This document shows, one piece after another, positions 16,230 through 19,851 of a stretch of 40,110 nt of DNA (position 1 is the stretch's first letter; each line of letters opens with the position of its first letter). Both the position numbers and the translations under genes were made by a program. The stretch comes from Gammaproteobacteria bacterium (GTDB lineage Bacteria > Pseudomonadota > Gammaproteobacteria > Thiohalomonadales > Thiohalomonadaceae). Under the pieces are notes generated by a model that did not search any database, had not been told where the DNA came from, and saw nothing but the letters and a program-made list of their open reading frames with translations. The DNA lies in the NCBI GenBank assembly GCA_003252455.1, contig QKED01000038.1, positions 1-40,110 of the forward strand. The letters run 5' to 3'.

Positions 16230-17648
16230 TTATTGCCCCATGGCCACGGCGATGGCTGCCGAGATGGCAGCGGCCAACTCACGCGGCTTACGGTGCATGG
16301 AGTAGTCGATGAGCTCTGGATGTTGCTCGACGAAGGAGGTGTCGAACTTGCCGCTACGAAAGTCCTCGGAGCCCAGGATCTCGTCGTAATAGGGGATGGT
16401 GGTCTTTACACCGTACACACCGATGTCGGTGAGCGAGCGACGCCCACGGGCGATCAGCCCCTCCCAATCGCGCGCCCAGACGATGAGCTTGGCGCACATC
16501 GAGTCGTAGTAGGGGGGGATCTCATAGCCGGTGTAGATGGCGGCATCCACGCGCACACCGGGACCGCCAGGGGCGAAGTAGCGGGTGATGCGCCCGTAGC
16601 TGGGGAGAAAGTCGTTCTTCGGGTCCTCGGCGTTGATGCGCATCTCCATGGCGAAGCCGTTTGGCTTGATCTCCTCCTGCTTGAAGGAGAGCGGAAGGCC
16701 CGAGGCGATACGGATCTGCTCTTGGACGATGTCGATACCGGTGATCTCTTCGGTGATGGTGTGTTCCACCTGCAGGCGGGTGTTCATCTCCATGAAGTAG
16801 AAGGTGTTGTCGGCGTCGAGTAGGAACTCCACTGTACCGGCGTTCTCGTAACCCACGGTGGCGGCGGCACGCACGGCCAGCCCGCCGATATACTCGCGCT
16901 GCTCATTAGTAAGCTGCGGGGAGGGGGCCAGCTCGATGAGCTTCTGGTGACGGCGCTGGATGGAGCAGTCGCGCTCGTAGAGGTGTACGACGTTGCCGTG
17001 GCTGTCGGCCAGCACCTGTACCTCGATATGGCGGGGGTTGACCACGCACTTCTCGATGAAGATGTCGGCACTTCCGAACGCCTTGGTCGCCTCGGAGATG
17101 ACACGGTCATAACCGTTGCGCAGCTCGGTAAGGTTGTTGCAGCGACGGATGCCACGCCCACCGCCGCCGGCGGCGGCCTTGAGCATCACCGGGTAGCCGA
17201 CCTGCTCGGCGATAGTGATCGCCTCGTCGAGGTCCTTAAGGGAATGCTCGGTGCCAGGGGTGACCGGCACCCCAGCCTCGATCATGGCGCGGCGCGCGGC
17301 GGTCTTGTCGCCCATGCGTGCGATCACCTCGGGGGAGGGACCGATGAAGCGGATACCGCGGCGCTTGCAGATGGCCGCCAGCTCCTGATTCTCGGAGAGA
17401 AAACCGTAGCCGGGGTGAAGGGCATCGCAGCCGGTGGCCACCGCCAGATTCACAAGACGGTGGGCATTGAGGTAACCAGCCACGGTGTCGGGGCCGAGGG
17501 AGTAGGCCTCGTCGGCCTTCTTCACGTGCAGTGCGTGACGGTCCGCCTCAGCATAGACCGCCACGGAGCGAATACCCATCTCGGCGCAGGCGCGCACAAT
17601 GCGCACGGCGATCTCGCCGCGGTTGGCGATGAGGATTTTCTTGATCAC
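16230..17648 (-). CDS. pycA: pyruvate carboxylase subunit A (biotin carboxylase)
   Basis: The 472-residue protein carboxylates biotin using ATP and bicarbonate. It has the N-terminal LIANRGEIAVRI fold, the glycine-rich ATP loop KAAAGGGGRGI in the ATP-grasp domain, and the catalytic EMNTRLQVEH motif, so it should be active. Length fits stand-alone biotin carboxylases (AccC or PycA); the adjacent PycB identifies it as the pyruvate carboxylase subunit, while the acetyl-CoA carboxylase AccC is presumably elsewhere. GGAG lies 13 bases before the ATG, a weak spacing. It diverges from yceD across a 258-base region. Confidence 0.93.
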   Translation of the reverse strand: MIKKILIANRGEIAVRIVRACAEMGIRSVAVYAEADRHALHVKKADEAYSLGPDTVAGYLNAHRLVNLAVATGCDALHPGYGFLSENQELAAICKRRGIRFIGPSPEVIARMGDKTAARRAMIEAGVPVTPGTEHSLKDLDEAITIAEQVGYPVMLKAAAGGGGRGIRRCNNLTELRNGYDRVISEATKAFGSADIFIEKCVVNPRHIEVQVLADSHGNVVHLYERDCSIQRRHQKLIELAPSPQLTNEQREYIGGLAVRAAATVGYENAGTVEFLLDADNTFYFMEMNTRLQVEHTITEEITGIDIVQEQIRIASGLPLSFKQEEIKPNGFAMEMRINAEDPKNDFLPSYGRITRYFAPGGPGVRVDAAIYTGYEIPPYYDSMCAKLIVWARDWEGLIARGRRSLTDIGVYGVKTTIPYYDEILGSEDFRSGKFDTSFVEQHPELIDYSMHRKPRELAAAISAAIAVAMGQ

Positions 17649-17868
17649 TGAAAACGGACTCCGCTAGTTAGGCTGGCGATGCGTGAACCGCCGATTCTAC
17701 GTTACAATAGCCTTCTTTGGATATACGGCTCGTCCCAACGGGATAGAACCCCCTATCCAAAAGGCGCAGGTTTCCCGAATCTGCCTGGAGTGTCAAGTCT
17801 CCGCCACAATCCACTTGTGTCGCCGTCAGCCAGTAACCCCCATATCTTGTGTCGGCGCTGCATTATTT

Positions 17869-17897
17869 TTGACATATCCACGAAGGACTTATATCAT
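17869..17897 (+). promoter_or_regulatory. predicted sigma-70 promoter of yceD
   Basis: A consensus -35 TTGACA (17869-17874) and a near-consensus -10 TATCAT (17892-17897) are spaced by exactly 17 bases. The predicted transcription start is near 17904, only about three bases before the yceD ATG at 17907. That would make the yceD mRNA leaderless or nearly so. Confidence 0.65.
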
Positions 17898-17906
17898 GGT
17901 TCGGTT

Positions 17907-18467
17907 ATGTTGACCGGGCGCCTACCAGTTAAAGTCGACCCCATGCGCTTATGCGACGTGGGACGTATTCATTCTGGCAGTATGCCCCTTAAACAGATGA
18001 CACGGCTCATGCCCCTGGTGCTCGATGAGTCCGGTGAGGCCGAGGTGGAGCTGCAATTCGAACGCGACTTCGAACGCCGCTACATTATTACCGGCCAGAT
18101 CCGCTCTCAGGTGCGCCTGACCTGCCAGCGCTGCATGGAGAGCTATCTCCAGCCGCTGCAGATCGAGGTGAGTCTGGCCCTGGTACGTGACGCGGTGCAG
18201 GCCGAACAGCTGCCAGAGCGCTATGACCCTCTCCTCATCGAGGGCGATGAGCTGTTTCTGCGTGACTTGGTCGAAGACGAGCTGCTGCTGGCCCTGCCGG
18301 CGGTACCCCGTCACCTCGACGATGCGTGCGCGATGGACCCTGCACCGATTGGCGATGTCCAGGGTGTGTCATCCGACGACAGCGAAACCGATCCCCATGG
18401 GGAAGAGGACGAGGCGCCCACGCCTCCCAATCCCTTCGCCATACTGGGTCGGTTGAAAGATAAATAA
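17907..18467 (+). CDS. yceD: YceD / DUF177 family protein (23S rRNA accumulation)
   Basis: YceD is required for normal 23S rRNA levels in E. coli and plants and typically precedes rpmF. With the ATG at 17907 (MLTGRLPVKVDPMRL) it has 186 residues, close to E. coli's 173; the open frame extends upstream to 17679 but without family similarity. The zinc-knuckle-like CQRCMESY motif and the VEDELLLALPAVPRH and NPFAILGRLK segments match the family. A short insert rich in Asp/Glu precedes the C-terminal motif. A strong promoter sits immediately upstream, and a GAAGGA site serves a five-codon frame (MVRLC, 17896-17913) overlapping the start. Confidence 0.93.
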   Translation: MLTGRLPVKVDPMRLCDVGRIHSGSMPLKQMTRLMPLVLDESGEAEVELQFERDFERRYIITGQIRSQVRLTCQRCMESYLQPLQIEVSLALVRDAVQAEQLPERYDPLLIEGDELFLRDLVEDELLLALPAVPRHLDDACAMDPAPIGDVQGVSSDDSETDPHGEEDEAPTPPNPFAILGRLKDK

Positions 18468-18494
18468 CCCTTTGGATCAAGTTGAGGATTAACC

Positions 18495-18668
18495 ATGGCC
18501 GTACAGCAGAACCGCAAGACCCCCTCCCGTCGTGGCATGCGTCGCTCCCACGATGCGCTGAAGTCCACCCACCTCTCCGTGGACGCCACCAGCGGTGAGG
18601 TGCATCTGCGCCACCACGTCACCCCCGACGGCTACTACCGTGGTCGCAAGGTGGTCAACAAGGGTTAA
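18495..18668 (+). CDS. rpmF: 50S ribosomal protein L32
   Basis: This 57-residue protein begins [20 protein letters not shown] and ends [11 protein letters not shown], matching bacterial L32 over its whole length. It is basic and lacks the zinc-binding cysteines found in some L32 variants, as in E. coli. The ribosome binding site GAGG lies eight bases before the ATG. It follows yceD by 27 bases in the conserved order yceD-rpmF-plsX, and a strong terminator hairpin follows it. Confidence 0.97.
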
Positions 18669-18695
18669 ACCCTCGTTGTAGCCGGTACCCTTGCC

Positions 18696-18742
18696 CGATG
18701 CCGGCTCAGGGCTTCACGCCTTGAGCCGGCATCGCGGTTTTT
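18696..18742 (+). terminator. intrinsic terminator/attenuator between rpmF and plsX
   Basis: A 13-bp perfect stem (CGATGCCGGCTCA / TGAGCCGGCATCG), extended inward by a G/C pair or two, is followed by CGGTTTTTA. A second, smaller hairpin (TGCCGCC / GGCGGTA) lies at about 18763-18781, before plsX. Together these could limit read-through from the ribosomal part of the operon into the lipid genes. Confidence 0.85.
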
Positions 18743-18810
18743 ACCCCCCGAATTTTCTCGTGCCGCCCTTACGGCGGTACGTGGCGAGCACAGAAGGTAC
18801 ACACAGTTCT

Positions 18811-19851
18811 ATGAGCCAGCAGTGGGTTACGATTGCACTCGACGCCATGGGCGGCGACCACGGTCCTAGTGTCGTTGTCCCCGCCGCCATCGAGGCCTTG
18901 CGTCGTTATCCCCGCCTGCGCCTCATCCTTGTCGGCCTCGATGAGGCGGTCCAGGGTGAGTTGAAGGCCCATAACAGTGCACTGAGTGAGCGCCTGCTGC
19001 TGCGCGCCGCAACTCAGGTGGTGAGCATGTGCGAACCCCCCTCCCAGGCGCTGCGCGGCAAGAAGGACTCCTCCATGCGCGTGGCCATCAATCTGGTCAA
19101 GGAGGGGGAGGCGATGGCCTGCGTCAGTGCTGGCAATACCGGTGCACTGATGGCCACGGCGCGCTTCGTGCTCAAGACCCTGCCCGGCATCGACCGCCCG
19201 GCGATCCTCTCCAAACTTCCGACGATGAATGGCCACACCCATGTACTCGACCTGGGTGCGAATGTCGACTCCTCCGCCGAGCACCTGTATCAGTTTGCCG
19301 TGATGGGCTCTGTACTGGTCAGTGCAGTAGATAGTAAACCCGCACCGACCGTGGGTCTGCTCAATATCGGCGAGGAGGAGATCAAGGGCAACGAGCAGGT
19401 CAAGGAGGCGGCCAAACTGTTGCAGGGTTCGGGCCTGAACTACACAGGTTTCGTCGAAGGAGACGACATCTATAAAGGCAGTGTCGATGTGGTCGTGTGC
19501 GACGGCTTTGTCGGCAACGTCGCCTTGAAGACCAGCGAGGGCTTGGCCAAGATGGTCAGCCACTATATAAGGCAGGAGTTCAAACGCAACCTGCTCACCA
19601 AACTGGCGGCCCTCGTGGCCATGCCGGTGCTCAAGGCGTTCCGTGCCCGCATCGACCCACGCAACTATAATGGTGCGAGCCTAGTGGGTCTGCGAGGGAT
19701 CGTCATCAAGAGTCACGGCAGTGCCGACGTGCACTCCTTCGTGACCGCCATTGGCGAGGCGCTGGTGGAGGTGAAGAAGAACGTCCCCGAGCTGATCAGC
19801 GAGCAGCTGAGCGAGAAACTCAAGGTACAAGAACAAAGGCAGGCGGTGTGA
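18811..19851 (+). CDS. plsX: phosphate acyltransferase PlsX
   Basis: PlsX converts acyl-ACP to acyl-phosphate for phospholipid synthesis. The start at 18811 ([19 protein letters not shown]) matches the family; the frame is open further upstream only through the terminator. The 346-residue length is normal. Conserved segments include [23 protein letters not shown] and [14 protein letters not shown] lies 12 bases before the ATG. The gene ends in a GTGA overlap with fabH, so the two are translationally coupled. Confidence 0.96.

Follow-up and report, generated by a model that had tools for sequence, protein, structure and literature searches.

A promoter kept 8–10 nt before the yceD start codon predicts a leaderless or near-leaderless head of the L32–lipid operon in Gammaproteobacteria

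The gene yceD, which is followed by rpmF (ribosomal protein L32) and the lipid gene plsX, is very probably translated for the most part from an mRNA with no leader or hardly any, as judged from the DNA around its start codon in the genome studied here and in its relatives. A sigma-70 promoter whose -10 element is separated from the yceD ATG by 9 nt would generate an RNA beginning at the A of this ATG in most relatives, and possibly 3–4 nt earlier in the present genome, and the ribosome would start YceD synthesis via the 5'-terminal AUG. This near-leaderless geometry is deeply conserved and constitutes the commonest state in our sample of the class Gammaproteobacteria, and it is thus not unusual for this operon head. 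An earlier sequence-only reading of the locus had proposed a leaderless mRNA or coupling to a five-codon minicistron, and had considered two initiation modes depending on the transcript start to be unusual for the head of a ribosomal/lipid operon. Its leaderless half is supported by the promoter-to-ATG distance kept in relatives, the absence of a Shine–Dalgarno (SD) sequence, the ATG starts and the pyrimidines preceding the ATG, while its minicistron half is not well supported.

The window, i.e., the whole stretch of 40,110 nt that was analysed (contig QKED01000038.1, assembly GCA_003252455.1), contains on the forward strand yceD (PF02620, 186 aa, 17907–18467, ATG at 17907–17909 without a good SD sequence), rpmF (18495–18668, SD-led in most relatives) and plsX (18811–19851, its start taken as ATGAGCCAG inside an open frame), in the same gene order as the E. 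coli operon. In the gap between rpmF and plsX, a strong terminator-like hairpin (18696–18734, forward strand), consisting of 17 pairs followed by CGGTTTTTAC, may set the L32 unit partly apart from the lipid genes. Upstream of yceD, its frame stays open to an ATG at 17679 (17679–18467, forward strand, 262 aa from there), so a gene caller could annotate the yceD start at this position, thereby including the promoter. Nevertheless, a different YceD start was rejected, given that the N-termini of the relatives line up with ATG 17907 and that an in-frame stop is found 18–30 nt upstream of the match start in 10 of 20 family loci.

The promoter described in the sequence-only reading is present near the yceD ATG. 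The -35 element TTGACA (17869–17874, forward strand), recognised both in the letters and in a promoter scan, and the -10 element TATCAT (17892–17897, forward strand) match the consensus in 11 of 12 positions, with a spacer of 17 nt that lies inside the 16–18 nt of sigma-70 promoters, and the -10 element ends 9 nt before the ATG. The intervening stretch GGTTCGGTT (17898–17906, forward strand) would comprise the discriminator and a possible leader of 0–4 nt, as predicted from the distance to the -10 element. The statement that the ATG lacks an SD sequence is likewise confirmed, with an anti-SD pairing of -2.2 kcal/mol. In a scan of positions 16500–19500, the yceD promoter was the only site at threshold and shuffled sequences gave 0.7 sites. 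Thus, in a single genome it could be a chance match (one found and 0.7 expected in 3 kb), and a comparative test was needed. A loose promoter pattern matched the genome 4 times, versus 2 for the reversed pattern, and these matches include yceD, one site within a fusA-like frame and one near rplM–rpsI.

In the relatives, a promoter was called when it matched the consensus in at least 9 of 12 positions and ended 8–10 nt before the yceD start. Conservation in relatives had been proposed with the sequence-only reading as a check on both the promoter and the minicistron, and the promoter is retained: it is found in all 20 family genomes, among them our own, and in 160 of the 218 class genomes with a YceD match. 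The family genomes share one layout, namely TTGACA (18 genomes) or TTGACT (2), 17–18 nt, the -10 element, 9–10 nt and the ATG, with YceD proteins 34–46% identical to our own in the 19 other members; no second genome of the same genus was returned by the family search. The class sample comprised 274 genomes, 218 of them with a YceD profile match and upstream DNA taken and the other 56 without a match; the 218 include our own genome and two further family members, and a first count had covered 210. Widening the window to 5–12 nt raised the number of promoter-bearing class genomes to 174, i.e., 14 of the 58 genomes that are negative under the 8–10 nt rule have a promoter at 5–12 nt. Since the start was assigned as the in-frame start nearest to the profile start, with a slight preference for ATG, some of these 58 negatives may be mis-started. 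When only one genome per family was retained, the promoter was found in 91 of 123 at 8–10 nt and in 99 of 123 at 5–12 nt. Moreover, its frequency rises with the similarity of YceD to the search profile (131 of 150 stronger matches versus 29 of 68 weaker ones), and it was found at 8–10 nt in all 80 named loci, which were obtained by an alignment-based contig scan (a single-sequence scan yielded no confirmed relative), include Pseudomonas, Halomonas, Methylobacter, Marinobacterium, Chromatium and Aliidiomarina and which, as the best-scoring 80 of 560, are skewed to closer relatives and partly duplicate genomes of the family set. Conservation throughout the phylum was rejected: in a PF02620 search, none of the 30 best loci among 106 non-class genomes with a match had the promoter at any candidate start, a procedure that yields 163 of 218 within the class.

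Several controls rule out a chance origin of this conserved geometry. Twenty rounds of dinucleotide shuffling of the upstream DNA from the class genomes gave a mean of 0.85 promoters per 218, with a maximum of 2. In loci extending far enough downstream, no promoter occurs 8–10 nt before the start of rpmF (0/179) or of plsX (0/76), and other ATGs on the same strand carry one in 12 of 12,729 cases, these three controls being pooled over all loci with some places counted more than once. In addition, a narrower promoter signature searched for in the 274 whole class genomes gave 90 matches distributed over 88 genomes, and 81 of these matches fall at yceD, so that the signature is nearly private to yceD in these genomes. 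Because the yceD sites themselves served to build the signature, it is circular as to sensitivity but not as to specificity, and it is blind to other leaderless geometries. Nine matches lie away from known yceD genes, where the reversed signature gives five matches in the same 274 genomes, and some of the nine may correspond to other leaderless genes (G195:C28:9629, G250:C58:3884, G148:C92:959, G236:C4:208264, G095:C50:3476, G265:C12:11448, G153:C21:107202, G266:C1:4802836 and G189:C37:85138). Two of these genomes, G148 and G265, have no YceD match, and an unseen yceD is possible there.

The anatomy of the start site points in the same direction. Among the 160 class promoters, the -10 element ends 9 nt before the ATG in 123, 10 nt in 28 and 8 nt in 9, and the -35 element is TTGACA in 114. 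The first six bases of the discriminator are 81% GC over these promoters, versus 55% for the loci, and the discriminator of our own genome falls below the class consensus in GC content. At the 160 promoter-bearing starts, position -1 is T in 88%, and position -2 carries a pyrimidine (T or C) in 98% and a purine (A or G) in about 3%. RNA polymerase prefers to start at a purine that follows a pyrimidine, and 101 of 128 class sites have only pyrimidines at positions 7–9 after the -10 element. From position 7 onwards, the first purine in these 101 sites is accordingly the A of the ATG (position 10), whereas it stands at position 7 in 21 sites, at position 9 in 5 and at position 8 in 1, so that most relatives should start the yceD RNA at the A of the ATG. 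Our own genome, unlike most class sites, has G at positions 6 and 7 after the -10 element (17903 and 17904), and its possible RNA starts are G17904 (3-nt leader), G17903 (4-nt leader) and A17907 (no leader). A start about three bases before the ATG, as proposed in the sequence-only reading, fits G17904, one of these three candidates. Leaderless mRNAs generally need an AUG start codon, and the start is ATG in 160 of 160 promoter-bearing class genomes under the nearest-start rule, versus 49 ATG, 6 GTG and 3 TTG in the 58 genomes without the promoter; when all in-frame candidates are allowed, the promoter lies before 161 ATG and 2 GTG. The median SD pairing of these 160 yceD starts is 0.0 kcal/mol and only 3 of them reach -6 kcal/mol or better. 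For rpmF, the median is -6.8 kcal/mol, with 158 of 179 starts at -6 or better, pooled over loci.

With no SD sequence at yceD, the ribosome would have to recognise a 5'-terminal AUG. The same mRNA would run on into rpmF, and with a strong SD sequence at rpmF, one transcript would provide a low dose of the assembly factor YceD and a high dose of the structural protein L32. This RNA start, the leaderless translation and the dosage role are all inferred from the conserved sequence features described above. The unequal yield would resemble that of the rpsP–rimM–trmD–rplS operon, where one mRNA likewise delivers ribosomal and non-ribosomal proteins in unequal doses according to PMC4378010; however, in yceD–rpmF it would be a leaderless operon head that keeps one product low.

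E. coli K-12 shares the essentials of this organisation, i.e., the order yceD–rpmF–plsX–fabH and the geometry TTGAC-17-TAnnnT-9-ATG, its own sequence being TTGACT-17-TAATAT-GCGCGCCCT-ATG with the -10 element ending 9 nt before the ATG. A query of 105 bases around this promoter matched 5374 of 5426 E. coli genomes at 95% identity or more (5282 at 99% or more and 92 at 95–99%). The two loci differ upstream, where E. coli has the small RNA gene sraB directly before yceD and the neighbour in our window is a divergent carboxylase-like frame. In the E. coli locus (L022, 2090–2258), sraB is annotated as ending 36 nt before the yceD ATG, and a hairpin with a T run lies just before the -35 element (-9.9 kcal/mol for 26 bases).

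The lack of a leader in E. coli has already been remarked in print, although only in passing: PMC4378010, a ribosome profiling study of E. coli, mentions yceD as having no 5'-noncoding leader and as less efficiently translated than rpmF, and uses the operon to illustrate unequal translation. Knocking out yceD in E. coli is reported to lower the amount of 23S rRNA and to leave growth near normal (PMC5049393). Leaderless mRNAs are described as scarce in E. coli and other enterobacteria in PMC5230787 and PMC9031893, and PMC4782308 gives 82 transcription start sites, or 0.4%, for E. coli. The natural leaderless mRNAs of E. coli treated in PMC5230787 (torS, pgpA and a helicase gene that the article prints as rhoB) begin with the AUG or right beside it, as would be the case for yceD; however, their starts are reported and that of yceD is predicted, and they are presented as cases from a single organism, in contrast to a geometry conserved through the class sample. 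The main text of PMC5230787 on E. coli leaderless genes does not name yceD, the main text of PMC2760140 contains neither the gene nor the word "leaderless", and PMC3896788 applies this word to a different gene. A statement on class-wide conservation of leaderless yceD was found nowhere in the article passages and search results covered.

Other explanations of the locus have to be weighed against a leaderless or near-leaderless yceD. The minicistron features pointed out in the sequence-only reading all exist: an SD-like GAAGGA (17882–17887, forward strand) with an anti-SD pairing of -5.4 kcal/mol and a five-codon frame MVRLC plus stop (17896–17913, forward strand) that covers the yceD ATG at 17907–17909. 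On longer transcripts, GAAGGA could recruit ribosomes that translate MVRLC and then reinitiate at the yceD ATG. Frames beginning at -11, as in our genome, are also present in E. coli K-12 (MRALCKR) and in 17 of the 80 named loci, several of which belong to Pseudomonas. However, the class sample has such frames in just 11 of 218 genomes and the family in 3 of 20, our own being counted in both. If every ATG frame that overlaps the start of yceD is considered, the numbers are 25 of 218 class genomes, 6 of 20 family genomes and 19 of 80 named loci, and an overlapping frame with a pairing of -6 kcal/mol or better occurs in 3 of 218, 1 of 20 and 4 of 80, respectively. The E. coli frame has seven codons and practically no SD pairing (-0.4 kcal/mol), unlike the five codons and -5.4 kcal/mol of our own. 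Furthermore, GAAGGA lies within the promoter spacer and outside the predicted transcript, the minicistron ATG overlaps the -10 element upstream of the predicted RNA start, so only a longer transcript would contain the frame, and no second promoter-like site at the scan threshold was found upstream of yceD in the window. The ATG at -11 arises because the -10 element ends in AT and is followed by G, also in E. coli, and 10 of the 11 class genomes with this frame carry the yceD promoter, as fits such an origin. The minicistron, which is not conserved together with its ribosome site, thus looks like an incidental by-product of the -10 element plus G; it was rejected as the main feature of the locus, and coupling through it appears highly improbable.

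It is also conceivable, albeit improbable, that the promoter mainly serves rpmF and the lipid genes and that yceD is translated from longer transcripts starting upstream. The strong SD sequence of rpmF would agree with this, as would the lower translation efficiency of yceD relative to rpmF in E. coli noted above from PMC4378010 and a preprint figure legend that draws two E. coli yceD–rpmF promoters, yceDp1 and yceDp2, citing Tanaka 1989. Nevertheless, a promoter needed for rpmF alone might be placed at any point of yceD, yet it ends 8–10 nt before the yceD ATG in 160 of 218 class genomes, all 160 of which start with ATG, and the longer transcripts would mostly lack an SD sequence for yceD too. 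Longer yceD transcripts may still exist, because two promoters are drawn in that legend, and yceD may then use two initiation modes depending on the transcript. Finally, conserved DNA of whatever kind may be bound by a protein, and the block upstream of yceD might reflect a regulator site or coding constraint rather than a promoter. This is very hard to reconcile with the distribution of information in the logo of the 123 class sites with distance 9, which is concentrated in the hexamers, a T before the -35 element, the GC-rich discriminator and the bases adjacent to the ATG; the spacer is near random, with a length of 17 nt in 115, 18 nt in 42 and 16 nt in 3 of the 160 promoters, as in sigma-70 promoters.

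The retention of the leaderless geometry at yceD across most of the class sample, together with the rarity of the signature elsewhere, implies selection. An arrangement thought to be rare in this group has thus apparently been kept at one gene over very long evolutionary times, and yceD offers a natural chromosomal mRNA for experiments in E. coli K-12 on leaderless initiation, on how this is tied to ribosome assembly and on dosage control within the operon. As a tentative and rather unlikely extension, the leaderless start could act as a conserved sensor of the ribosome state, with the discriminator adding growth-rate (ppGpp) control of the L32–lipid operon. In such a scheme, translation of yceD would rely solely on 70S-type initiation at the 5' terminus, and YceD synthesis would follow the pool of 50S and 70S particles and initiation factors. 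YceD, which promotes the accumulation of 23S rRNA, would in turn feed back on 50S assembly. GC-rich discriminators of this kind resemble those of rRNA promoters.

Some individual loci deserve mention. In a record titled as a Rhodobacteraceae metagenome-assembled genome (L124), yceD is 40% identical to our own and preceded by the same near-leaderless promoter, and the title may reflect a misbinned contig. One locus (L140, G039:C168) has one in-frame TAG inside the YceD match. By eye, five loci (L006, L011, L012, L013 and L015) share further blocks about 55–110 nt upstream of yceD, outside the promoter, corresponding to TTGTCAAG and a GGAATCAGAAGGAGTT-like stretch.
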